This document shows positions 16,156 through 32,497 of a stretch of 32,497 nt of DNA, in pieces (the first letter of the stretch is position 1; every line of letters begins with the position of its first letter). The DNA is from Lysobacteraceae bacterium (GTDB lineage: Bacteria > Pseudomonadota > Gammaproteobacteria > Xanthomonadales > Rhodanobacteraceae): NCBI GenBank assembly GCA_028866435.1, contig JAGWIC010000032.1:1-32497 (forward strand), given 5' to 3'. The notes beneath the pieces are model-generated. The model had not been told where the DNA came from. It searched no databases and saw only the letters and a program-made list of their open reading frames with translations. The position numbers were made by a program, and so were the translations under genes.

Positions 16156-17445
16156 TCATGTACTGAGCAGCAGTTCGTCTTCCTGCACCCGGTTCATGTG
16201 GATGCGGTTGATGAACAGCGAGAAGGCGAGCTTGCCGGCCAGCCCGTGCACGCGCTGCATCCAGGGCGGCAACCACAACGGCGGCAGGATGACGCCGCTC
16301 TCGAAGTGCGGCTGCAGGCTGATCACGTCGGCCAGCGCCAGCTTGCCGGCGAACAGGTGCCGCAACAGGTCCATCCGGCGCTGCTTCAGCGCCCAGCGGA
16401 AGAAGGTGTGCACGGTGAGCAGGCCGGACAGGTAGACGTTGTCCTTGGCGAACGCCGCGCCGCCGCCGAGCGGCACGCCGCGGAATACCCGCTGGGTCGA
16501 ATGGAAGCTGTCCGCCACCGTCTGCCCGCGCTCGCTGAAAAAGCGGTAGACCTCGACGAAATCGGCCCCCTGCAAGGCCATGTCGATCGCCAGGATGCGC
16601 AGGCTGATGCGCTTGAGCCGGGTGATGTCGATGGCGCCGGACATCAGCTCGGCGAACACTGCCAGGCCCTCCTGGGTGGCCGTGACCCGCGGCGACGTGC
16701 GCCCCATCGAGGCCAGCAGCGGCTGCCGGCGGCCATTGAGCGCGGTCAGCGAATGCACGAAGGCCTCGTGCGCCAGCAACTGGTGGCGGTCGTAGTCGCT
16801 GAAGCAGGCGCCGCCGCGCAGGCGGATCCGGGTGGCGCCGGCGGCGGCCTTCGCGGTGAGCTCGGGATCAACCTCGACACTGATCTTGCCGGCCCCGAAA
16901 AAGGCATCGAGGGTGCCGGCCAGGTCGGCCCGCAGCACGTCGGCCGGGATGTTGATGCTGCTGTCGTCGGCCAGCAGGTCGGCACCCAGCTCGTCCGACA
17001 GCTCGACGAAATAGCGGGCGGCGTCGAGGTTGCTGCGCTGGCTGCCCGGAATCATGTCGTCCGGGCGGCCGTAAAGCGCGATGGAGGGCGCGGTCACGCC
17101 GGCGGTGCCGACCGCTTCCAGCATGCCCGCGGCGATCCGCCAAGACTCGGCGCTGCGCCGCAGGTACTCGCCCAGCGGGTCGACATCCGCCGGGTCGCTG
17201 CCGCCGGCGGCCGCTTCGATCGCCGCCAGCTCGGCACGCGCCTCGCCCAGGTCGGGCACGCTGTAATGCACCGTGGGCAGGGTGAACCGGCCCCGGTCGT
17301 AGGCCTCGATCATGCGGTTTTCCAGCGAGGCCGGCCAGGCCACGGTGGACAGCACGTGGATCGGGCGCACCGCGGCCAGCAGGCGCTGGTCCAGCGCCGC
17401 GTAGCGTTGCAGCCCGGCCGCCACCGGCTTGCCGGGGGCACTCAC
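16156..17445 (-). CDS. QEGLA-motif protein, DUF1704 (flavohemoglobin expression-modulating / metallocarboxypeptidase-like)
   Basis: This 429-residue protein is named for its motif TQEGLAVFAELMSG and carries the gluzincin-like pair of that family: a helix LLAHEAFVHSLTAL (HExxxH) followed by QEGLA with the downstream Glu. This arrangement is shared with eukaryotic MATCAP/KIAA0895 tyrosine carboxypeptidases, so a metallopeptidase activity is plausible; the bacterial substrate is not established. The start is a GTG, chosen because GGAGGG lies eight bases upstream (GGAGGGTATCGCG-GTG) and homologous-looking sequence starts there; the frame is open 70 codons further but is unconserved in character. 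It lies 108 bases upstream of maeB on the same strand. Confidence 0.9.
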   Translation of the reverse strand: MSAPGKPVAAGLQRYAALDQRLLAAVRPIHVLSTVAWPASLENRMIEAYDRGRFTLPTVHYSVPDLGEARAELAAIEAAAGGSDPADVDPLGEYLRRSAESWRIAAGMLEAVGTAGVTAPSIALYGRPDDMIPGSQRSNLDAARYFVELSDELGADLLADDSSINIPADVLRADLAGTLDAFFGAGKISVEVDPELTAKAAAGATRIRLRGGACFSDYDRHQLLAHEAFVHSLTALNGRRQPLLASMGRTSPRVTATQEGLAVFAELMSGAIDITRLKRISLRILAIDMALQGADFVEVYRFFSERGQTVADSFHSTQRVFRGVPLGGGAAFAKDNVYLSGLLTVHTFFRWALKQRRMDLLRHLFAGKLALADVISLQPHFESGVILPPLWLPPWMQRVHGLAGKLAFSLFINRIHMNRVQEDELLLST

Positions 17446-17632
17446 CGCGATACCCTCCGCAGGCTGTCGACGCGCCCGAAGCGCGAGCCGGTGCGCGTCG
17501 GCAGCCGCCACGGCAAGGTGCCGGCCAAGGCCGCAACGGCGGGCCGCGGCGGCGGGAAAACCCGCCTGTGCAACACGGTGGACGATGAGGACAATCGACG
17601 CATGGCTCGACCCCTGGTGTGCGGATGGTAGC

Positions 17633-17658
17633 GCCTTGCGGCCACGCTGCCGCAAGGC
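17633..17658 (-). terminator. Hairpin terminator after rsgA
   Basis: A perfect 10-bp stem (17633-17642 with 17649-17658) with a 6-base loop lies ten bases after the rsgA stop codon. There is no T-tract. The rest of the 222-base gap to the QEGLA gene shows nothing else clear. Confidence 0.7.
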
Positions 17659-21731: not shown

Positions 21732-21805
21732 ACATGGGCTTGAAAGCCGGCCGGAGCACCGCATGTCCAGCGGCGTATCATGTCGTCCTTTGCCGGAGTT
21801 TCCCC

Positions 21806-22729
21806 ATGTCCCTGGATAGCGCAACACGCGAACGCATCGAGACCCTGCTCACCAGCCACCGCGTGGTGCTGTTCATGAAGGGCACGCGCCAGCAACCCAT
21901 GTGCGGCTTCTCCGCCGCCGCCACCAATACGCTGAACGAGCTGCTGCCCGAATACCACACCGTCAACGTGCTGGAGGACCAGGAAATCCGCGAGGGCATC
22001 AAGCTCTACGGCGAGTGGCCGACGATCCCCCAGCTTTACGTCGACGGCGAGCTGATCGGTGGCGCCGACATCATCAGCCAGATGTACGGCAGCGGCGAGC
22101 TGCACACGCTGTTCGGCGCGGCGGCACCGGACCGCACGCCGCCGGAGATCACCATCACCGACGCCGCCGCCGAGGCGATCCGCCAGGGCACGGCCAACGC
22201 CCAGGGCGCGGCCCTGCATCTGGAAATCGGCCCCGACCACAGCGCCGGATTCCAGCTCGCACCAGCCGGCAAGCACGACATCGTCGCGCACGCGAACGGC
22301 CTGGAGGTGCATTTCGACCCGGCCAGCGCCCAGCGCGCGCGCGGCATCGTGATCGACTGGGTCTCCACGGTGCAGGGTGAAGGGCTGAGCCTGAAGTTCC
22401 CGGGCGCGCCAGAAATCAAGTCACTCAGCGTGCAGCAGCTGCAGGCGCGACTGGCCGCCGGCGACATCACCCTGATCGACGTGCGTCCCGCGGCGAGCCG
22501 CGCCATGGCCGCACCACTGTCGGCGGCGCGGGTGCTGGAGGAGGAGGGCTACGAGAGCCTGGCCAGCCTGCCCAAGGACACCGCGCTCGCCTTCATCTGC
22601 CACCACGGCATCTCCAGCCGCGCGATGGCCGAACGCTTTGCCGCCCACGGCTTCAGCAACGTGCACAACGTCGAAGGCGGCATGGACGCCTGGGCCAGCG
22701 AGGTGGATCCGGGCGTGCCGCGTTACTGA
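21806..22729 (+). CDS. Monothiol glutaredoxin (Grx4) fused to A-type carrier-like and rhodanese domains
   Basis: This 307-residue protein has three domains. Residues 1-105 are a CGFS monothiol glutaredoxin (Cys33 in QPMCGFSAA, then WPTIPQLYVDGELIGGADI), which binds a [2Fe-2S] cluster with glutathione. Residues about 113-200 look like an IscA/HesB A-type domain (ITITDAAAEAIRQ, GIVIDWVSTVQGEGLSLKF), but the three cluster-binding cysteines are all missing. Residues about 205-300 are a rhodanese domain with an active-site loop beginning at Cys265 (CHHGISSRAM). The start has GGAG nine bases upstream. It likely works in iron-sulfur cluster trafficking in the cytoplasm. It is the last gene of the plus-strand run and is closed by a terminator. 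Confidence 0.93.
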   Translation: MSLDSATRERIETLLTSHRVVLFMKGTRQQPMCGFSAAATNTLNELLPEYHTVNVLEDQEIREGIKLYGEWPTIPQLYVDGELIGGADIISQMYGSGELHTLFGAAAPDRTPPEITITDAAAEAIRQGTANAQGAALHLEIGPDHSAGFQLAPAGKHDIVAHANGLEVHFDPASAQRARGIVIDWVSTVQGEGLSLKFPGAPEIKSLSVQQLQARLAAGDITLIDVRPAASRAMAAPLSAARVLEEEGYESLASLPKDTALAFICHHGISSRAMAERFAAHGFSNVHNVEGGMDAWASEVDPGVPRY

Positions 22730-22792: not shown

Positions 22793-24115
22793 TCAGGCGC
22801 TGACCGGCGGCAGCTCACAAGACTGGTTGAAGTCGCCGATGGCCTCGACCAGGTCGGTCACCGCCAGCCGCTCGGCTTCGCTGAGGTCCGGATTCCAGGT
22901 ATCCAGGATCAACACCACGCGGGTCTTGTCACTGTGGTTCCACGCTTCGTGCTCGAAGGTATCGTCGAAGGTCACGCAATGCCCTTCCTGCCACACGTGA
23001 TCCTCGCCACCCACACGGATCGCGCAGTCGTTCGGCACTATCAACGGCAGGTGGGTCACCAGACGGGTATTGGTCACGCCCGTATGCAAGAGGATATGTG
23101 TGCCTGGACTGAGTACTGAAAAGAGGGTTTCCGGCGAATGATCACGAATGCGCACCAGCGGCAGTGCATCCAGCAGAGCCGTGGTCTGCGGGCAGCGCAG
23201 GCAATGCTCGTCGTAGCGGATGCCATGGCGATAGAAGAAAAAGGCATCCCACGAGGCCGGCCGCTCGCCTGACGAATCAAGCAGTTCCTTCGTCTGCCCT
23301 GGCGACTGCACGCCAAGGAACGCCTCCAGTTGCTGGCTCTGCGCAAGCACCTCACGCAGCTCCTCCCGTACGGTAGCGGTGGCTGCTTCAAGCGCGTCCA
23401 GCCACGGGAATCGTTCACGCGGATAGAACGGCTGGCTGGGGATATCCGGGAAATAGAGAAACTTCGGCTTCTGCCGCGGATCGGGAATATCTGCCGACCG
23501 CTCGCCAAAATAGATGGCCAGGCTGCGCTCGACACGCACCAGCTCGGCGCTGCCGTAGCGGTCGCGCAGCGGCTCGAACGACGCGCGAAACAGCTGGTGG
23601 CGGCCTTTGTTCACGTAATTCATGGCGTAGCGCACCGCCCCGCGTAGCCCCGGTGCGGTGGTGGCGTCACTGACCCAGCGACCTTGCGCGTGCGCGCCCT
23701 GGATGGCCATGAAGTAGGCCTTGAGCGCCTCATGCGACTGCCCGAGTTGTTCCAGCGCGACGCCCAACTGCAACCTCGCCACGAATACGCCAGGCGCCAA
23801 CGCCAGCCCGCGTCGCAAGCTGTCCGCTGCTTGCGCGAAGTCCCCGGCGCCCGACTGCGCGAAGCCCAGCTGGTTCCAGATCGTGGGATCCTCAGGCCTA
23901 GCCCGAGCAGCGACCTGCAACGCACCTATCGCCAGCTGATGTTCGCCGCGCGAAACATGCTGGCCGGCGATGAACAACAGCGCCTGCACGTCATCCGGCA
24001 CCAGCGCAAGCAGCCTCCTGAAACAGTGTTCCGCCGCATCCGTGTCATGGCGGCGCAGATGGTCCAGCGCCATCGAGCGGCTTGCCGCGGGATTGGGATC
24101 GTAGGGCTTGTTCAT
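22793..24115 (-). CDS. TPR protein with aspartyl/asparaginyl beta-hydroxylase domain
   Basis: This 440-residue protein is predicted to be cytoplasmic, with no signal peptide or membrane segment. Residues about 15-145 form three to four TPR units (DDVQALLFIAGQHVSRGEHQ, DPTIWNQLGFAQSGAGDFAQ). Residues about 215-410 are a 2-oxoglutarate/Fe(II) aspartyl/asparaginyl beta-hydroxylase domain. The iron ligands His344 (LLHTGVTN) and His389 (FEHEAWN) and the 2OG-binding His355 (THLPL) and Arg399 are all present, and the spacings 11, 34 and 10 closely match human AspH as I recall it. It should therefore be active. Substrates may be protein side chains or a small molecule. It is divergent from the first TPR-sulfotransferase. 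AAAGG nine bases upstream supports the ATG. Confidence 0.92.
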   Translation of the reverse strand: MNKPYDPNPAASRSMALDHLRRHDTDAAEHCFRRLLALVPDDVQALLFIAGQHVSRGEHQLAIGALQVAARARPEDPTIWNQLGFAQSGAGDFAQAADSLRRGLALAPGVFVARLQLGVALEQLGQSHEALKAYFMAIQGAHAQGRWVSDATTAPGLRGAVRYAMNYVNKGRHQLFRASFEPLRDRYGSAELVRVERSLAIYFGERSADIPDPRQKPKFLYFPDIPSQPFYPRERFPWLDALEAATATVREELREVLAQSQQLEAFLGVQSPGQTKELLDSSGERPASWDAFFFYRHGIRYDEHCLRCPQTTALLDALPLVRIRDHSPETLFSVLSPGTHILLHTGVTNTRLVTHLPLIVPNDCAIRVGGEDHVWQEGHCVTFDDTFEHEAWNHSDKTRVVLILDTWNPDLSEAERLAVTDLVEAIGDFNQSCELPPVSA

Positions 24116-24190
24116 CGACACGCACCTTTCTTCGCTCGGGGTAAATCGGGCCGGCCCCCGGTGACCGGACACGGGCCATGACTGTGCGGG

Positions 24191-24197
24191 CATAATA
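24191..24197. promoter_or_regulatory. Possible -10 element in the hydroxylase/sulfotransferase divergent gap
   Basis: The sequence reads CATAAT on the plus strand and TATTAT on the minus strand at overlapping positions. Either could serve the divergent pair (starts at 24115 and 24318). No clear -35 is seen on either strand. Nothing else is recognisable in the 202-base gap, and there is no peptide-coding frame with a tyrosine in it. Confidence 0.25.
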
Positions 24198-24317
24198 CGC
24201 GTTGGCGAGGTGCCACATCGGCAACACCACCAAACGCGCACGAATGGCGAAGCTGCGGCACAACACGCATCGGTAACGCGGCGAGTGATCGCCCGTGGTT
24301 GAATTCCTGGAGGTTGA

Positions 24318-25892
24318 ATGTCCCTGCTACTGGATGGGTTGACGCCGGTCGCCGCGAGAAGCGTGATAGCGGCCGGACAGGCGCTGGATGCCGGGCGGGT
24401 GGACGACGCCTGGCGCCATCTGGTCGAAGCCTCCGTATCGCACCCGGACCACCCGGAAGTACTGCGCATGCTGGCCGGCATCCATGGCATGCGCGGACGG
24501 CATCAGGATGCGATAGCGACCATGCGCCGCGCACTGGAGCGACGCCCGGACGTGGCCGCCTATCACAACACGCTGGGCAGCCTGCTGGGTCAGGCCGGCG
24601 AGTACGACGCGGCGATCGCCGCCTTGCGCCGCAGTTGTGAACTGCAACCGGGCATGGCCATCGCCTGGTACAACCTCGGAGTCATGCTGGTACGCTGCGT
24701 GCGCAATGAAGAAGCCCTCCTGGCACTGGAACGGGCCGTTTCCTTGGCACCGGATCACATGTCGGCGCGCGCGCTGCTGGCCGACATGCTGCGCATGCGT
24801 GGGCATGTCACGCAGGCCGCCAGCACATATCGCCGGGTGATCGCGGAACAACCGTGGGCCGGCATGGCCTGGTGGGGTCTGGCCGACCTGAAATCGGTGA
24901 GGTTCCAGGAGAACGACATTTCCCTGATGCGGCAGGCGATGCAGGATCCTCACGCCACCGTCGATGACCAGATTGCCATCGGGTTCGCCCTCGCCAAGGC
25001 ACTTGACGATGGCGGCCAGCACGAAGGTGCGCTGGCGGCCTTGGCCGGCGCCAACGCCATGGCACGACGGCGACAGTCATGGAACCGGAGCGGCTATTCG
25101 GCCGCGGTCGACGCGCTCAACGCGGCCTTCACGCCACCGCCACCCGGTGCCGATGCCGCGCTTGGCCGGGAGGCGATCTTCATCGTCGGCCTGCCGCGTT
25201 CGGGATCGACCTTGATCGAGCAGATACTCGCCTCGCACTCCGATGTCTGTGGAGCCGGTGAACTGCCCGACCTGCCGCAGGTGCTGGCCGAGGAATCACG
25301 CAGCCGTGGCGAGCCGTTTCCACGCTGGGTCGGGTCGATGCAGCCGACAGACTGGCAACGTCTGGGACAACGTTACCTGGAGCGCACAGCCTATTGGCGG
25401 CGCGAACACCGCGTGTTCACCGACAAGTTGCCCAGCAACTGGGTCTACATCGGCGCCATCCGCGCCATGCTGCCGGGTGCGCACATCGTCGCAAGCAGCC
25501 GCGACCCGCTGGAAACCTGCTTTTCCTGCTACAGGCAAAGGATGGACAACAACGAATATACGCGCGACTTCGACGACCTGGCCAGCTTCTGGCGGGACTG
25601 CGACCGCAGCCTGCGTCACTGGACCAGCCTGCATCCCGATCATGTCATGGTGCATGAATATGAAGCGATGCTGGCCGATCCGCAGGATCGGATTCGCCGC
25701 CTGTTGGCATTCTGCGGATTGCCGTTCGAGGACGCCTGTCTCAGCTTTCACCTGAACCAGCGCGAGGTCCGCTCGCCGAGTGCCACCCAGGTCCGCCAGC
25801 CATTACGTAACGACACCGCCCGCGGGCCTGTATATGGCGCCTTGCTCGACCCATTGCGCAAGGCATTGGGGATGCAACCATGGCCAGCCTAG
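24318..25892 (+). CDS. TPR-sulfotransferase protein 1
   Basis: This 524-residue protein has no signal peptide. Residues about 15-270 are TPR repeats (DVAAYHNTLGSLLGQAGEYD, MAIAWYNLGVMLVRCVRNEE, DHMSARALLADMLRMRG). Residues 286-490 are a Sulfotransfer_3-type domain: the PAPS 5'-phosphosulfate loop FIVGLPRSGSTLIEQIL at about 288, a Glu in GAGELPDL (about 315) at the place of the catalytic base in tyrosylprotein sulfotransferases, DKLP, and the 3'-phosphate motif SSRDPLETCFSCYRQ at about 393. It would transfer sulfate from PAPS to a hydroxyl group. GGAGG five bases before the ATG is a strong ribosome-binding site. The next sulfotransferase starts 76 bases downstream on the same strand. Confidence 0.93.
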   Translation: MSLLLDGLTPVAARSVIAAGQALDAGRVDDAWRHLVEASVSHPDHPEVLRMLAGIHGMRGRHQDAIATMRRALERRPDVAAYHNTLGSLLGQAGEYDAAIAALRRSCELQPGMAIAWYNLGVMLVRCVRNEEALLALERAVSLAPDHMSARALLADMLRMRGHVTQAASTYRRVIAEQPWAGMAWWGLADLKSVRFQENDISLMRQAMQDPHATVDDQIAIGFALAKALDDGGQHEGALAALAGANAMARRRQSWNRSGYSAAVDALNAAFTPPPPGADAALGREAIFIVGLPRSGSTLIEQILASHSDVCGAGELPDLPQVLAEESRSRGEPFPRWVGSMQPTDWQRLGQRYLERTAYWRREHRVFTDKLPSNWVYIGAIRAMLPGAHIVASSRDPLETCFSCYRQRMDNNEYTRDFDDLASFWRDCDRSLRHWTSLHPDHVMVHEYEAMLADPQDRIRRLLAFCGLPFEDACLSFHLNQREVRSPSATQVRQPLRNDTARGPVYGALLDPLRKALGMQPWPA

Positions 25893-25968
25893 GCGTGTCG
25901 CCTTGCCGCCAGTACCCGCCCCCTTGCCGGCTGCCGTTCACGACAGGCTGGGGCAAGGTTGCTCGATC

Positions 25969-27612
25969 ATGACCCCATCGACCGCCTCCCCCGCTACCGG
26001 CATCGCCCCCAAAACGGAGACCCTGCGCGCGCCCAGGCAGAGCAGCGCACGCGGTCAAGCCGATGCCACCGGGCTGCTTGGCGCCCTCCATGGTGCCGAC
26101 GAGGACGGTTGGCTGGAGTGCGCACAGGCATTGGTGCTACGAGGTGACCACGAGATGGCATTGCTGGTGCTCGATCACGCCATGGCCGCCCATCCCCGCT
26201 CGGCCCGGATCAGGCTGGCGCTGGGCGGGAGCCTGCTGCACCACGGCAATGAGCCGGCGGCCGAGACCGTGTTGCGAGCTCTGCTGTGCGACGTCCCCGA
26301 GCATGCCGCTTGCAGCCTGCTGCTGGCGGGAATGCTGAAGGAGCAGGGACGCATGAAGGCGGCGGCGACGACGGTGGTCGACACGTTCGCGCGCAAGCGC
26401 CAGGACGTCGAGTCACTGCTGCTGGCGATCGAACTGCTTGACGATGCCGGCCACCAGCAGGAGGCCGCCACCCTGTGCGAGGCAGAGATTGCTGCGGGCA
26501 GCGGCGACGCCCGCTTGTTTGCCCACGCCGGCATGCTGCTTTCCCAGCTGGGCAAGTTTGAGCAGGCGCGGGTGTATCAGGAATCGGCGTTGGCCATGAC
26601 GGCGCAGGCGCTCGACTGGCATGTGCCACTGGGCATGGCCGGCCTGCAGCGTTACCGCCAGCCTGACCACCCTGACTTGTCCCTCTTCGCGGGTTACCTG
26701 CAGCAGTCGGGCCTTGGCTCGTGGGCGCGCGCGGGCCTGCTGTTCGCCCTGGGCAAGGCTCGCGACGACCTCGGCGACTACGCGCAAGCGGCGGCTCTCC
26801 TGCGCGAAGCCAATGCGCTGGTGAACGCGATGACTCGCTGGCCGCGCAAACAGTGGCGGCGCAGCATCGAGGCGCGGCTCAAGCGCAAGCCGCCCGCCGG
26901 CCGGCTCGTCTCACCGATGGACTGGATCCCGGTATTCATCGTCGGCCTGCCCCGCGCAGGAACCACCCTCCTCGCCGAGCTGCTCGGACGCCATCCAGCT
27001 GTCCGCCACCGCGGGGAGTTGCCCTGGATGCCCACCCTGGCCGATCAGCTGGCGACCGCCGGCGACCGCGATGACGGCGCTCTGGAACGGGCCGCTGGGG
27101 CGTATGCCGCGCAGCTGCGGCAGGACGACGGGGGCGCTGGCTGGCTGATCGACAAACAGCCACACAACTTCATGCACGTCGACCTGATCCTGGCGATGTT
27201 CCCCAATGCCAGGATCATCCATTGCCAGCGCAACGCGCGCGACAACGCGCTGTCGCTATGGATGCAGTCCTTCCAGGCGGGCAAGCAGGGCTTCGCCTAC
27301 GACTTCACCGATATCGCTGCCGTGATCCACGGCAGCCGGCGCTTGATGCAGCACTGGCGGCTGCGCTATCCGGATTCGATCCGGGCAGTGCGGTACGAGG
27401 CCCTGATTGCGGATCCGGCCAGCGTGCTCGACGCCTTGTGTACTTGGCTGACACTGCCCTTTCACAACCTGGTTGATGCGCACCCCGAGGACGGGGCGAT
27501 CAGCACGGCCAGCCTCTGGCAAGCACGTCAGCCGATCCACTCAGGCTCGATTCAACGCTGGAAGCACTATGCCGTCCTGCTACCCGAATTGCTGAGCCTA
27601 CCCGACATCTGA
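25969..27612 (+). CDS. TPR-sulfotransferase protein 2
   Basis: This 547-residue protein follows sulfotransferase 1 by 76 bases, probably in one operon. Residues 35-280 hold TPR-like helices that are less regular than in its neighbours (SARIRLALGGSLLHHGNEPA, GDARLFAHAGMLLSQLGKFE). The sulfotransferase domain starts at about 320: PAPS loop FIVGLPRAGTTLLAELLGRH with Ala where the other two have Ser, Glu350 in RGELPW as likely base, DKQPHNFMHVDL, and a 3'-phosphate motif CQRNARDNALSLWMQSF. The C-terminus SLWQARQPIHSGSIQRWKHY is the TPR-sulfotransferase signature. The start is uncertain: only a distant AAGG precedes the ATG, and the frame is open upstream to 25780 inside the preceding gene. Confidence 0.9.
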   Translation: MTPSTASPATGIAPKTETLRAPRQSSARGQADATGLLGALHGADEDGWLECAQALVLRGDHEMALLVLDHAMAAHPRSARIRLALGGSLLHHGNEPAAETVLRALLCDVPEHAACSLLLAGMLKEQGRMKAAATTVVDTFARKRQDVESLLLAIELLDDAGHQQEAATLCEAEIAAGSGDARLFAHAGMLLSQLGKFEQARVYQESALAMTAQALDWHVPLGMAGLQRYRQPDHPDLSLFAGYLQQSGLGSWARAGLLFALGKARDDLGDYAQAAALLREANALVNAMTRWPRKQWRRSIEARLKRKPPAGRLVSPMDWIPVFIVGLPRAGTTLLAELLGRHPAVRHRGELPWMPTLADQLATAGDRDDGALERAAGAYAAQLRQDDGGAGWLIDKQPHNFMHVDLILAMFPNARIIHCQRNARDNALSLWMQSFQAGKQGFAYDFTDIAAVIHGSRRLMQHWRLRYPDSIRAVRYEALIADPASVLDALCTWLTLPFHNLVDAHPEDGAISTASLWQARQPIHSGSIQRWKHYAVLLPELLSLPDI

Positions 27613-27696
27613 TGGTGGCCATGCCGGGGCGCACCTTGTACTCGCAGCAGCATATTGACCTGGCCGATCCCGCATGAAGGCAATAGCTCGTTTCGG

Positions 27697-29517
27697 TCAG
27701 TCGGTCGAATAACCCCAGTGATCCAGCATCGGCTTGAGTATCGGCAATGCCGGCTGCAATGCATCACGGTAACGTAGCCAGCGATTGAGGCCCTTGCGGT
27801 TTACCGGCTGGATCACCTGCGAATAGCTTGGTGTGGCGATATAACCCTTGTCTCGCGCGTGCTGATGAAAATTCAGCATCGGCGAGGCATCAGCTACACC
27901 GAGAAACTGGGCGATACGACCACTATGCGCAGCAGGATCCGCTACCAGATCCTCGTAGCGGGACACCAGCAGGTTCGGCTGAAACACTTCGACGTGATGC
28001 AACCAGCACTCCATCGCCGTGACATAGGCGCTGGCCAGTCTCTCGATCGACGAACAGGCCAGGGCCAACACGCTGGAGCGGAAGTTCTGCATGTAGTTGC
28101 TGACCAGCACGTCGCAAGGATGCCGCAGGGCAAGAATGAACTTGGCCTCGGGAAACAGCCTGTGGATCATAGGGAGCCAAAGCATGTTCAGCGGGTTCTT
28201 GTCGACCAGTCTGGCATCCCAGCGCCGCGGGATCTTTGAGCACACCAGTTGCAAATAGCCCTTGCGTAGTTCGTCGCAGTCGCGTTGACTCAGCTTGCCC
28301 AGGTCGCGCGGAATCTCCGCTCCGAAGTCGGATAACTGGTCGGCCAGGATGTTGAAAAACGGCCGCTCGTCCATCGACTGCATGCCTGGATGCGCATCCA
28401 GCATCTGCTCCAGCAAGGTGGTGCCGGAGCGGGGGAAACCAACGATGAAGATGGGCGAGTGGTCGGCATCGGGTGCCGAATAACCGGGCCAGTCGAGGTA
28501 CTCCGCACGACTGACCTTGCCCACCGCCGCAGGCAGCACCGGCGCATCCGGCTCAAAGCGGTAGGGAACCACCGCTTTGAGCTCGTCCATCTGCAGGGCA
28601 TGCGCCGTCTGCAGACTGGCCAGGGCGGCTGGCAAGTCGCCCAGCTTGTCGCACGCGTCGGCGTTGACGAAGTAGTGCGCATAGTCCAGCTGGTGACGCG
28701 GACCGGACCGGGCGAGGATGTCGCGTGCCTCCGCCGGCTTGGAGCGGCGCAGCGCGAGTACCGCTTGCTGATGGGCAATTTCGAGCATGGTCGGCGGATC
28801 CGCCGCCGTCGACTGCGACGTGATCCGATCCAGCAAGGTATCCGCGTCGGCAAGCCGGTTCACGCGCTCGTAGACGGCGGCCAGGAGCAGCCTGGCCTGG
28901 TGATGGGCTGGCGTGCGCTGCAGCAGCTGTTCCAGCAGGATCTGCGCGGTGCCGGCATCTCCCTGCACCAGGTGTAGGTCGGCCAGCTCGAACAACAACG
29001 AGTCGTTGAGCTGACCCCACTCGCGCCACGGCTGGATCAGCGCTTCGGCGCGGTAGTCGCGGCATGCGGAGCACGCGCGCGCGGCGTTGATGCAGGCGAT
29101 CGCAGATGTCGGGTCCAGACCCACCGCCCTGAGCAGGCTCTCGCGGGCTGCCATGTAATCGAGCTGCTGCAGCTGCAGCAGGCCAAGGTTGATCCATTGC
29201 AAAGCATCGTCGGGCGCCAGTCGAAGCGCGGCCCGGTAGGCCACGACCGCTTCGTCCTGCCGACCGACCTCGCGCAGGGCCGTCGCATAGTTGCCCCAGT
29301 GCAAGGCGCTGTCGGGAAACATCCCGGCAAGCCTGGCGTAGGTTTCGACCGCCTGTTCCAGCCGGTGCTGCTGCTGCTGCGCCAGGGCAAGCAGAAACAG
29401 CACATCCGCGTTGCGGGAGTCCTGCTTGAGTGCGGCATGGCAGAGCCGCTCGGCCTCATCGGGTCGAGCAGCCTGCAACGCCGAAAGAATGGGTTGGGAG
29501 GTATTTATGGTCGTCAT
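27697..29517 (-). CDS. TPR-sulfotransferase protein 3
   Basis: This 606-residue protein has long, regular TPRs at residues about 5-310 (ADVLFLLALAQQQQHRLEQA, SALHWGNYATALREVGRQDE, DALQWINLGLLQLQQLDYMA). The sulfotransferase domain starts at about 357 (FIVGFPRSGTTLLEQMLDAH), with Glu384 in SMDERPFF as likely base, DKNPLNMLWLPMIHRLFP, and a 3'-phosphate motif LRHPCDVLVSNYMQNF with Ser473. It converges on sulfotransferase 2 with an 84-base gap that shows no clear terminator. The start ATG has almost no Shine-Dalgarno and lies six bases after the T-tract of the receptor gene's terminator. Translation may therefore depend on read-through from the receptor transcript or on an unusual leader. Confidence 0.92.
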   Translation of the reverse strand: MTTINTSQPILSALQAARPDEAERLCHAALKQDSRNADVLFLLALAQQQQHRLEQAVETYARLAGMFPDSALHWGNYATALREVGRQDEAVVAYRAALRLAPDDALQWINLGLLQLQQLDYMAARESLLRAVGLDPTSAIACINAARACSACRDYRAEALIQPWREWGQLNDSLLFELADLHLVQGDAGTAQILLEQLLQRTPAHHQARLLLAAVYERVNRLADADTLLDRITSQSTAADPPTMLEIAHQQAVLALRRSKPAEARDILARSGPRHQLDYAHYFVNADACDKLGDLPAALASLQTAHALQMDELKAVVPYRFEPDAPVLPAAVGKVSRAEYLDWPGYSAPDADHSPIFIVGFPRSGTTLLEQMLDAHPGMQSMDERPFFNILADQLSDFGAEIPRDLGKLSQRDCDELRKGYLQLVCSKIPRRWDARLVDKNPLNMLWLPMIHRLFPEAKFILALRHPCDVLVSNYMQNFRSSVLALACSSIERLASAYVTAMECWLHHVEVFQPNLLVSRYEDLVADPAAHSGRIAQFLGVADASPMLNFHQHARDKGYIATPSYSQVIQPVNRKGLNRWLRYRDALQPALPILKPMLDHWGYSTD

Positions 29518-29523
29518 GGTCCG

Positions 29524-29555
29524 AAAAAAAAGCCGCGCGGGATCACCGCGCGGCT
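29524..29555 (-). terminator. Intrinsic terminator with T-tract, after the receptor gene and abutting the sulfotransferase 3 start
   Basis: On the minus strand a perfect 10-bp GC-rich stem (29546-29555 with 29531-29540, 5-base loop) is followed by seven T residues (29530-29524). It is the best Rho-independent terminator in the window. The receptor stop is at 29591, upstream in this direction, and the next start codon is at 29517, six bases after the T-tract. Confidence 0.92.
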
Positions 29556-29590
29556 CGTCAATCACTAGCCTGTCGAACCGGCTAGGTCGA

Positions 29591-32497
29591 TCAGAACTTC
29601 ACCGTCACACGTGCCCAGTAGTAGCGGCCGATGAGATCGAAGTCGCTCGGATCGGTGTTGGCGTTGAGCGTGTTGTTCGCGTACAGGAACGGCGGCTGCT
29701 TGTCGAACACGTTGTTCACGCCAAAATCCACGCGCGTGTTGATCGGTTCGATATTGTAGCCAATCGACATGTCGTTGTAGACCGTCGCACCGTACTTGAA
29801 CACGACGTTGCTCAGGTAGCTACCCGCCGGATGGGTATCCTGCGTCGCGTTGAGCGAACCGTTCTGGAAGCGGCCGATGTAACGCATGCGCCACGACGCA
29901 TCCCAGTTGCCGAGGTTCCAGTTCAGGAAGCCCTGCGCACGCCAGCGCGGGAACAGGCACACGCCACCATTCGGAGTCGGGCAGGTCGAAGCCTGCGACG
30001 AACCGAACGGCAGGAAGTGACCCGCATCGTGGTAGACCTGGTTGGCGGTGGTACCCGGCGCCGTGGCCTGGTTGTAAAGCCCCAGGTAAGTCGCGTCCAC
30101 GCCCAGGACGAAGTTGCCGAAGGAGAACTGCGGCAGCTTATAGCGCAGCGACATGTCGACGCCGTTGGTGTCGGTACGGCCCAGATTGCCGGTCGGCTCC
30201 GTGATCTTGTCGATCTGGCCGGCATTGAGGCTGCCGGCCGGGAAGCGGGTGATCAGCGGGCAGTACTTGGTGACGCCGGCGTAGCACAGGTCGAGCACGG
30301 TCTGCGCGCCGATGTTGGAGATGGTGTTCTTCAGGTACACCTTCCACAGGTCGACGCTGACCGACAGGCCCTGCACATAGCTCGGGGAATAGACCACGCC
30401 CCAGTCGAAGGTCTTGCCATTCTCCGGCCCAAGCGGGAAGTTCGCGTAGGCGGAACCAGAGGCGACGGCGTTGATCTGCTGTCCGAGCTTCACGTCGGAG
30501 TTGACGAACGAGCCGTTGGTCGGCACACCGACGCAAGCCGGGTTGCCGGCCGTGGTGATGCCGTTGCAGGGATCATTGCTGAGCTTGGGCGCATCGCTGA
30601 CCGGCGCGCCGTACACGTCGCCGATCGACGGGGCACGGAACACCGAGGCCACCGTGCCGCGGATCAGCAGGTCGCTGATCGGGCGGAACTCGACGCCGAT
30701 CTTGGTGCTGTTGTTGCTGCCGAAGGTGCTGTACTTGGAGTAGCGATCACCCAGGGTCACGTTCAGCGAGTTGATGAAGGGCAGGTTGCTCAGCACCGGG
30801 ATGAACGCTTCGGCGTAGCCTTCCTTCACGTTGTAGCCGCCCTGCAGCGGCGAGCTGCACTGGCTGCCCAGAGTGCAGTTGCCGGTGGCCGGGTCGATCA
30901 TCAGCAGCGGATCGATCTGGCTGTGGACGTACTCGGTACGGTAGGAAGCACCGGCGCCGAGCTGGACCGTACCGGCCGGCAGATCGAACAAGCCGCCGTT
31001 GACGTCGAGGGAGTAGGTCTTCTCGATACCCAATGCGGTGCTGATCGCCGGTGTGGCGGCGGCCTTCAAGGCGGCGGTGGAGGTCGGGTCTGCCAGGTTG
31101 AACGGGTTGAACGGCGTGCAGCCCGTGGTGATCGGCGCAGCAGCGGTGCCGCAGGTCACCACCCCGTTGGACGCCATGAACGACGGCCCCATGTCCAAGT
31201 TCAGCTGCGTCACGTTCGGCAGGCCGTAGGTCACCGTCGTCTGCGAGGTGTGGCCGTAGCCGAAGCCGAGATCCCAGTTCCAGGCCTGGTTCAGGAAAGT
31301 AAAGTCACCCTTCAGGCCGGTATGGATCTGATCGGTCGCCGTACCGTAGGCGGCGGAGCGATTGCCGGCCGGAACCAGGCGCACGCGGTAGGTCAGGCCG
31401 GTGGAGGAAAACTCCTGCCCGAACGGGTTGTAGTAGCTGTTCGCCGAGATCACCGCGCCGGTGCCGGTGCCGAACACGGCCGGCGCCAGTTGGAACGCCG
31501 AGGCGGTCTTGTTGTGGTACGCGTCCAGATAGGCGGTGACGTTGTCGCTCAGGTTGTAGGTGCCATTGAGGAACATGCTGGTGCGTTCCTGCGGCGTCTC
31601 GATCAGGTTGACGCTGGCATAGTTGTACTTGTCGCTGTTGCCAAAGCAATGGTAATCAGTCGCGGGATTCTGACCGGACGCACCGGTGTTTGCCGATACA
31701 TGCGAGCAACCGTACTGGGCTGCGAGAGCAGTCGGCAGCTGAATGTAACCGTGCTGTGCGTAGCTCGAACCACCGACATAGGAATAGATCGGGGTCTTGC
31801 TGCTGCCGGTGATCGACACCGAATTCTGGGAATACTTGCGGTTCTTGGCTTCGATCTGGTCCTGCTGGTTGTAATCGATGCCACCCATGATGCTGCCCTT
31901 GTCGGACGTCTGACCAAAGGTGAAGCGGTAACCGGTCTGCGCACCATCATTGTGATCGGACTCGCCGTAATTGGCCGAGAACGTGGCGCCCTGGTAGTCC
32001 TTCTTCATGATGAAGTTGACGACGCCGCCGATTGCATCCGAACCATAGGTCGCGGAGGCGCCGGTGGTGAGCACCTCGATCCGCTCGATCATGTCGGCGG
32101 GGATGGAGTTCGGATCCTCGTTGATGATGCGCTTACCATTGATCAGGACCAGGGTGCGGTTGGCGCCCAAGCCGCGCAGACCGATGCTCGATGAGCCGGT
32201 GCCGCCGCTGTTGTTGACCTGAGGGTTGGTGTTGCCGCCGGTGACGGCCGGCAGTTCCTGCACGATGTCGCCCAGGGTCATCTTGCCGGTCGCCTTGATC
32301 GCGGCCGCGTCAATGGTGACCACCGGGTTGGAGGTTTCCAGATCCACACGGCGGATGTGCGAGCCGGTCACCACGACCGTCTGCAGCGTCTGCGCCTTCT
32401 GCGGACTGGCGGACTTGCTAGAAGCGGCCTGCCCGCTCGTATCCTGTGCGAAGGCGGTGCTGGTCGCGCCGACCGCGATGACGGCACCCAGCGAAAG
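29591..32497 (-). CDS. TonB-dependent outer-membrane receptor (5' end beyond the window)
   Basis: The 968 visible residues lack only the first part of the signal peptide. The visible start reads LSLGAVIAVGATSTAFAQDT, with cleavage expected after AFA. A TonB-box-like segment (TLQTVVVTGSHIRR) is followed by the plug domain (NPVVTIDAAAIKATGKMTLG, SSIGLRGLGANRTLVLINGK, IERIEVLTTGASATYGSDAI). A large 22-strand barrel follows and ends in the aromatic C-terminal strand YYWARVTVKF recognised by the BAM complex. Twelve cysteines fall into six close pairs, probably disulfides in surface loops. No FecA-type N-terminal signalling domain is present. The ligand is unknown. Sulfotransferase 3 follows directly, separated by the intrinsic terminator. 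Confidence 0.95.
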   Translation of the reverse strand, partial: LSLGAVIAVGATSTAFAQDTSGQAASSKSASPQKAQTLQTVVVTGSHIRRVDLETSNPVVTIDAAAIKATGKMTLGDIVQELPAVTGGNTNPQVNNSGGTGSSSIGLRGLGANRTLVLINGKRIINEDPNSIPADMIERIEVLTTGASATYGSDAIGGVVNFIMKKDYQGATFSANYGESDHNDGAQTGYRFTFGQTSDKGSIMGGIDYNQQDQIEAKNRKYSQNSVSITGSSKTPIYSYVGGSSYAQHGYIQLPTALAAQYGCSHVSANTGASGQNPATDYHCFGNSDKYNYASVNLIETPQERTSMFLNGTYNLSDNVTAYLDAYHNKTASAFQLAPAVFGTGTGAVISANSYYNPFGQEFSSTGLTYRVRLVPAGNRSAAYGTATDQIHTGLKGDFTFLNQAWNWDLGFGYGHTSQTTVTYGLPNVTQLNLDMGPSFMASNGVVTCGTAAAPITTGCTPFNPFNLADPTSTAALKAAATPAISTALGIEKTYSLDVNGGLFDLPAGTVQLGAGASYRTEYVHSQIDPLLMIDPATGNCTLGSQCSSPLQGGYNVKEGYAEAFIPVLSNLPFINSLNVTLGDRYSKYSTFGSNNSTKIGVEFRPISDLLIRGTVASVFRAPSIGDVYGAPVSDAPKLSNDPCNGITTAGNPACVGVPTNGSFVNSDVKLGQQINAVASGSAYANFPLGPENGKTFDWGVVYSPSYVQGLSVSVDLWKVYLKNTISNIGAQTVLDLCYAGVTKYCPLITRFPAGSLNAGQIDKITEPTGNLGRTDTNGVDMSLRYKLPQFSFGNFVLGVDATYLGLYNQATAPGTTANQVYHDAGHFLPFGSSQASTCPTPNGGVCLFPRWRAQGFLNWNLGNWDASWRMRYIGRFQNGSLNATQDTHPAGSYLSNVVFKYGATVYNDMSIGYNIEPINTRVDFGVNNVFDKQPPFLYANNTLNANTDPSDFDLIGRYYWARVTVKF

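Follow-up and report, generated by a model that had tools for sequence, protein, structure and literature searches.

At 22.8–32.5 kb of the window, the 32,497-nucleotide stretch of DNA analysed here, three TPR-sulfotransferases (ST1–ST3) and a TPR-hydroxylase (OH) are encoded beside a TonB-dependent receptor (TBDR), and TPR-sulfotransferases of this sort are linked to two unrelated kinds of TBDR. Our leading reading, held tentatively and with less than even confidence, is that the cassette serves as a protein-modification module dedicated to its receptor, whose most likely client would be the TBDR precursor. The kinds of enzyme are known, and joining them with TPRs and TBDRs appears to be new. 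No description of a TPR-sulfotransferase/TBDR linkage was recognised in full-text searches (subscription papers and preprints lying outside their scope, and a passing mention being possible). The window is the entire contig C26 of a 3.08 Mb genome in 128 contigs, and its relevant features are the following.

22793..24115, minus strand: OH, TPR protein with a C-terminal oxygenase of the aspartyl/asparaginyl beta-hydroxylase family, 440 aa (PF05118, 161.5 bits)
24318..25892, plus strand: ST1, TPR-sulfotransferase, 524 aa (PF13469, 141.7 bits)
25969..27612, plus strand: ST2, TPR-sulfotransferase, probable start codon ATG 25969 (PF13469, 136.2 bits for the full ORF)
27697..29517, minus strand: ST3, TPR-sulfotransferase with a TPST-like domain, 606 aa, adjoining the TBDR (PF13469, 126.0 bits for the full ORF)
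29530..29556, minus strand: GC-rich, terminator-like hairpin of 11 pairs with a T-run, between the TBDR stop and the ST3 start (terminator scan)
29591..32497, minus strand: TBDR, a long (about 980 aa) TonB-dependent receptor (PF00593, barrel, 88.7 bits; PF07715, plug, 79.1 bits)
31652..31654, minus strand: Tyr282 in the TBDR ORF, within DYHC; weak candidate for a modified residue (post hoc column comparison)

The Pfam searches confirm the gene content that a preliminary description of this DNA had proposed. The catalytic and receptor domains of all five genes pass their cut-offs, with the names Asp_Arg_Hydrox plus TPRs for OH and Sulfotransfer_3 for ST1–ST3; the TPR evidence is weakest in ST2, where two TPR models are above cut-off. 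The full ORFs extend over 22793-24490 (-) for OH, 25780-27612 (+) for ST2 and 27697-29565 (-) for ST3, and the starts at 24115, about 25969 and 29517, respectively, were chosen by alignment with relatives. As the window is a whole contig, the contig end cuts off the 5' end of the TBDR; measured against the full-length paralogue on contig C13, some ten N-terminal residues are lost. A single-operon cassette is ruled out, since ST1 and ST2 are encoded on the other strand. The same description had stated that the TPR enzymes lack signal peptides, and simple hydropathy agrees, no signal-like N-terminus being found in the four enzymes; the maximum over 12 residues is 0.57–1.36 for them, with ST1 the least clear, versus 1.9–2.0 for TBDRs. 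Beside the cassette, at 21734-22729 (+), one protein combines Glutaredoxin, Fe-S_biosyn (below cut-off) and rhodanese domains, and this combination also adjoins the cassette in loci L013 and L022. Elsewhere in the window, 16156-17655 (-) encodes a bacterial protein of the MATCAP type (PF08014, 355 bits; microtubule-associated tyrosine carboxypeptidase family).

The ST3 domain resembles animal TPST1/2 (PDB 8w5z, 3ap1, 5wri) most closely. Against PDB, the tick TPST is the best match, with an E-value of 5.2e-18 over 253 residues, compared to 1.2e-7 for the best non-TPST, which amounts to a preference over other solved sulfotransferases of about ten orders of magnitude. In the alignment the two share the Arg within PRSGTT, a Glu, the Lys within DK-P and the Ser within the S..QV segment. 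The corresponding residues of ST3, R363, E384, K440 and S564, are invariant in 31 ST3 sequences, and we take them to be the counterparts of the catalytic Arg, Glu (general base), Lys and Ser of TPST. The preference is modest for ST2 (TPST1 best, E 4.2e-8, versus 1.8e-5 for the best other), and the matches of ST1, at E 1e-5 to 7e-4, are to TPSTs as well as to CurM/polyketide sulfotransferases, with TPST not preferred. Judged from the alignments, a strong likeness to tyrosine sulfotransferases is therefore seen in ST3 only. What sets ST3 apart from animal TPST1/2 is that it is bacterial, with putative activity, that no signal peptide is seen and that a long TPR superhelix is fused to it. Its AF2 model (pLDDT 92.0) gives Foldseek matches to the TPR superhelices of SPY (SPINDLY)/OGT and to TPSTs. 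Also in OGT and SPINDLY a TPR superhelix precedes a group-transfer enzyme acting on proteins, but these are glycosyltransferases while ST3 is a sulfotransferase. APS kinase is encoded in the window's genome.

For OH, the best match in PDB is human AspH (E 3.3e-28), with the metal- and 2OG-binding motifs aligned. Residues H344, H389 and R399 are invariant in 23 sequences and aligned to AspH; the two histidines are presumably the metal-binding ones and R399 the 2OG arginine. Human AspH (PDB 6yyu, 5apa) has likewise TPRs and an oxygenase, and the HTG-TN-RL and FEHE-W motifs are common to both proteins. It differs from OH, for which no signal peptide is seen, the domains are placed differently and no EGF-like client is known. 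The human AspH oxygenase plus TPR fills Foldseek ranks 1–10 for the AF2 model of OH (pLDDT 92.7), and the TM of about 0.4 and rmsd of 19 Å are the reason for reading the relative placement of the two domains as different. With ST3 nearest to TPST and OH nearest to AspH among solved structures, it is plausible that the two enzymes modify proteins.

We now turn to the genomic linkage. In the window's genome, Sulfotransfer_3 gives seven matches at five loci and Asp_Arg_Hydrox four matches at four loci. Contig C13 carries a second cassette, in which TBDR, ST3 and OH are consecutive on one strand and are 44%, 40% and 67% identical, respectively, to their counterparts in the window, and on contig C103 a different TBDR comes immediately after another TPR-sulfotransferase. 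No TBDR of the window's kind was found near the TPR-sulfotransferases on C1 and C36 or the hydroxylase-family genes on C46 and C85, and the PF00593 listing of the genome has no entry on these contigs. Three of the five TPR-sulfotransferase loci thus adjoin a TBDR; there are 27 TBDRs in the genome, so that a random gene adjoins one with a probability of about 0.018, and the binomial value is about 6e-5, both based on an estimated gene number. Downstream of the second cassette (L006 on C13, 9770-15047) the genes have low GC3, two of them at 0.57–0.59 versus about 0.85 upstream, and this stretch is possibly a mobile island. Contig C113, which carries none of the three receptor pairs, encodes a strong MbnB/TglH/ChrH-family protein at 46534-47322 (PF05114, 360 bits).

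Among relatives, the OH-pair scan kept the best 80 of at least 538, which together with the window and C13 gives 82 OH loci. The 80 are mostly from Rhodanobacter and Dyella, the others from Frateuria, Rudaea, Tahibacter, Dokdonella, Lysobacter, Pseudoxanthomonas, Steroidobacter, Nevskia and unplaced MAGs. Going by its closest named kin, the host of the window is probably a Rhodanobacteraceae-like bacterium. In this set of best-scoring loci, a TBDR is present in 52, a sulfotransferase in 62 and both in 47, and at 45 of these 47 the TBDR and a sulfotransferase are neighbours on one strand. The layout TBDR>ST>ST<ST<OH> is found at fifteen of the 82, window included; others are TBDR>ST>OH> (7), OH>TBDR>ST> (7) and OH>ST<TBDR< (4). 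The gene calls of L006, L017 and L018 have TBDR, ST and OH consecutively, which means that these three alone can form a cassette. With stricter score limits, 26 of the 82 loci are without a strong sulfotransferase or strong TBDR; OH therefore also occurs outside the cassette, and these loci count against a strict link between OH and the TBDR. Several of them are short contigs, and at three that were scanned OH has beside it a TPR-only protein or TPRs with a just sub-threshold sulfotransferase domain. At the Lysobacteraceae loci L074 and L088, TBDR and OH are neighbours without a sulfotransferase. The distances of TBDR and ST3 correlate (r 0.727, 0/2000 permutations), as expected from co-inheritance.

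Some loci hold additional genes. Asp_Arg_Hydrox and Sulfotransfer_3 are joined in one neighbour protein at L081 11249-13030 (+) and, among the class-level loci treated below, at L190 11786-13870 (-), and at L077 3748-4830 (-) a methyltransferase gene stands between the TBDR and the TPR-sulfotransferase. Peptidase-family genes occur at L017 2655-4064 and 11390-13660 and at L027 6682-9943: M17 (L017, L027) and M1 (L027) upstream of the second cassette type and a tail-specific protease (L017) downstream, all of which may be chromosomal neighbours only.

In the order census, profile searches for ST3, TBDR and OH were made in 121 order-level genomes. ST3 homologues exceeding 440 bits occur at 25 places. 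At 21 of these a TBDR of at least 985 bits is no more than 800 bp away; at another the distance is 2 kb, and at the remaining three no such TBDR is nearby. The arrangements can be co-oriented, reversed or convergent. None of 13 weaker ST3 places (350–404 bits) adjoins a TBDR among the matches listed, the nearest being about 5 kb away in G286. Seen from the receptor side, 21 of 32 TBDRs with at least 985 bits have ST3 within 800 bp and 11 do not, and the receptor can accordingly work without ST3. Ten orphan receptors, that is, without an adjacent ST3, were fetched, nine of them from these 11 and one with 940 bits. In nine of the ten, neither a sulfotransferase nor OH lies within about 8 kb, and the tenth (L174) has a sulfotransferase about 4 kb off, while for five of the ten an ST3 exists elsewhere in the genome. 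The orphans are scattered through the tree of the TBDR clade, implying repeated loss or gain of ST3.

The pair on C103 belongs to a second family. Its receptor has 17 homologues (E<=1e-150) in the 121 genomes, and a homologue of the TPR-sulfotransferase is adjacent to all 17, co-oriented with the sulfotransferase upstream in twelve cases and divergent in five. Conversely, 17 of the 20 sulfotransferase places of this type with at least 640 bits are these TBDR-adjacent ones. As the window-kind and C103-kind receptors barely match (26% over 196 residues, E 9e-5), the link between TPR-sulfotransferase and TBDR exists in two distinct receptor families.

At the class level, TPR-OH (E<=1e-60) was found in 6 of 185 genomes, namely the window's own and five others, in five families. 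All five other loci have a TBDR and at least one sulfotransferase nearby, in differing orders; the sulfotransferases of G118 are located on the adjoining stretch L157, and the TBDR calls were made with an in-house plug profile and an in-house barrel profile (469–820 bits), not Pfam. Eight of these sulfotransferases were compared (531–675 aa); for seven the alignment to a TPR-sulfotransferase of the window's genome spans at least 514 residues, and for the eighth (G040_STc) about 450. Among the ten neighbour proteins scanned there are PF13759 2OG-Fe(II) oxygenases in three of the five loci, at L188 10840-12666 (-), where it is TPR-fused, L189 8464-9213 (-) and L190 8633-9340 (-). The notion that TPR-sulfotransferases generally accompany TBDRs is rejected, since a TBDR plug is present in only 3 of 26 class-level TPR-sulfotransferase stretches, some of which are short and which were searched with the in-house plug profile. 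The difference from the 5/5 TPR-OH loci has a Fisher value of 3e-4, for sets that partly overlap, as L146 and L157, two of the three plug-bearing stretches, come from the genomes of two of the five loci. The co-occurrence across related genomes on which the preliminary description had staked its proposal is hence found at the order, class and second-family levels. Its view that the genes form one system is borne out in so far as they are co-inherited in several of these comparisons, and weakened by the OH loci that have neither partner in strong form.

It is important to point out that the hairpin between TBDR and ST3 is conserved as well. A T-run beside a GC-rich hairpin is present in 30 of 44 cassettes (own detector), and in the window it ends a few bases ahead of the ST3 start. 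Compensatory change is seen at 7 of the 11 pairs in a selection of 30 of the 44 cassettes; those left out are L017, L023, L035, L036, L037, L038, L041, L044, L065, L076, L082, L084, L085 and L087. The terminator scan as a whole gave 3 sites versus 4.7 in shuffles. A hairpin also follows the receptor stop in nine of the ten orphans (permissive detector), three of these being GC-rich with T nearby. A regulatory role is for this reason disfavoured, and the simplest explanation is that the hairpin is probably the terminator of the receptor gene. Low-level readthrough into ST3 would fit the combination of an abundant receptor and a catalytic partner.

In the mechanism that we propose for the cassette, the TPST-like ST3, the AspH-like OH, and ST1 and ST2 as further sulfotransferases would all be cytosolic, and their TPR superhelices would grip a polypeptide in extended form, in the manner of OGT and human AspH. 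It speaks against this mechanism that in animals TPST and AspH work in the lumen of the secretory pathway. The C-terminal domain of the sulfotransferases would transfer sulfate from PAPS, probably to tyrosine, and that of OH would put a hydroxyl group on an Asp or Asn side chain. The client would most likely be the precursor of the partner TBDR, unfolded in the cytosol ahead of Sec export, and the loops of the exported receptor would then carry modifications that alter ligand binding or recognition. In its fullest form, which we consider possible but rather doubtful, this reading has TPST/AspH-related TPR enzymes sulfating and hydroxylating the TBDR chain before export in Gammaproteobacteria, with Tyr282 as a candidate site. 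Such receptor editing would involve at least two unrelated kinds of TBDR, with some loci adding 2OG oxygenases, a methyltransferase or hydroxylase-sulfotransferase fusions. We know of no counterpart to a receptor-maturation pathway of this sort. If the enzymes do act on proteins, bacteria would possess an equivalent of the tyrosine sulfation and aspartate hydroxylation of animals, coupled to nutrient receptors of the outer membrane. Ligands, phages and bacteriocins could be recognised differently where receptor loops are modified, and proteomics blind to +80 and +16 Da would miss such modifications.

The main rival to the receptor precursor as client is a peptide or small ligand. The enzymes would then tailor a RiPP (lasso peptide, chalkophore) or a siderophore, which is exported and re-imported via the TBDR, with the precursor encoded elsewhere; we regard this as unlikely, though if it were so the cassette would mark a class of sulfated, hydroxylated molecules. 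It draws on the C103 receptor, the second partner of a TPR-sulfotransferase, for which the best NCBIfam model is a siderophore-receptor subfamily, below its cut-off. RaxST of Xanthomonas, which counts among the closest known systems, has to our knowledge no TPRs. PMC4216712 reports in vitro tyrosine sulfotransferase activity for RaxST of Xanthomonas oryzae, a bacterial PAPS sulfotransferase like those of the cassette, and describes for raxSTAB a secretion and peptidase system, whereas the window has a TBDR. A precedent for the ligand rival comes from methanobactin: according to PMC3621798, a sulfotransferase (MbnS) and a TBDR (MbnT) share one methanobactin operon in some species, but MbnS is a PF00685 protein while the window enzymes are TPR-fused, and no MbnB-family gene was found in the cassette. 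PF05114 (the MbnB family) is above cut-off on C113 alone, with one sub-cut-off fragment on C4. A second precedent is a table in PMC10040529 in which the cluster numbers of lasso B2, sulfotransferases, aspartyl beta-hydroxylase, PqqD and asparagine synthase are close to one another, from which their adjacency is deduced; lasso, PqqD and asparagine-synthase domains are, however, absent among the subset of cassette neighbours scanned. The spacers of eleven minimal-cassette loci (107–151 bases) contain short ORFs, none of them evidently shared on visual inspection, although up to 151 bases could still encode a very short peptide, and the commonest small ORF in the OH-ST1 spacer of 17 loci is mostly antisense to the ST1 start, none occurring in more than six loci. 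A RaxX-like peptide, which the preliminary description had already noted as absent from the window, is found neither in the OH-ST1 spacer nor in the minimal-cassette spacers, and no RaxST-type linked peptide or exporter/peptidase is present among the scanned window proteins or spacers, the contig ending at the TBDR. Since TBDR, ST and OH suffice as a cassette and the spacers hold no convincing shared ORF, the receptor precursor would be the most economical client.

Another option is that lipid A, ornithine lipid or a surface glycan is the substrate of the enzymes, the TBDR being linked to them because it imports or senses that envelope material. Lipid hydroxylases also belong to the family of OH, and in NCBIfam the best models for it are those of the lipid hydroxylases OlsC, with 118 bits, and LpxO in second place, with 73 bits, far under their cut-offs of 450 and 500; the polyketide/CurM matches of ST1 point the same way, as does MlaA, which adjoins sulfotransferases at one distant locus. 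However, OH has TPRs like AspH and aligns with it in both domains, ST3 clearly favours TPST, and no lipid or glycan biosynthesis genes besides MlaA are present among the neighbours covered by a partial scan, so that we find this option improbable. Finally, TPR-sulfotransferase and TBDR might merely be genomic neighbours kept by descent, with no shared function. The 44 cassettes represent one TBDR clade and are not independent, and TPR-sulfotransferases without a TBDR exist on C1 and C36. The two unrelated TBDR families, the reshuffled gene orders, the distant TPR-OH loci and, with its partly overlapping sets, the Fisher comparison with class-level TPR-sulfotransferase loci all speak against mere neighbourhood, which we judge to be very improbable.

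To look for a receptor residue that goes with ST3, we have compared 50 ST3-linked receptors with the orphans, searching for Tyr, Ser, Thr, Asp or Asn columns above 80% in the former and more than 50 points lower in the latter. With the ten orphans pooled, no such column was found and only three glycine columns passed; nor is there a difference between linked and orphan receptors in the counts of Tyr, [DE]Y, acidic-flanked Tyr or Cys. In a post hoc repeat limited to the five orphans from ST3-free genomes, columns 282 and 959 (Tyr to Phe) stand out, along with eight others within the window's receptor, three of which are Gly. Tyr is not enriched among the lost columns (2/16 Tyr vs 8/213 others, Fisher 0.15). 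Column 282 is Tyr in 45 of the 50 linked receptors and Phe in the other five; it is Phe in 4/5 orphans from ST3-free genomes and Tyr in 4/5 orphans with ST3 elsewhere. The Fisher value of this association is 0.002, uncorrected for phylogeny or for the number of columns, there being 16 conserved Tyr columns. Three of the five orphans from ST3-free genomes form one branch, and Tyr–Phe is a common exchange. Tyr282 is consequently a weak candidate for a sulfation site and adds only slightly to our confidence in the receptor as client. The Tyr is absent from this column in all five class-level receptors, and receptors outside the clade have either Tyr or Phe there. The loop motif around it, DY[RH]C, also occurs, minus its cysteines, in receptors outside the clade.
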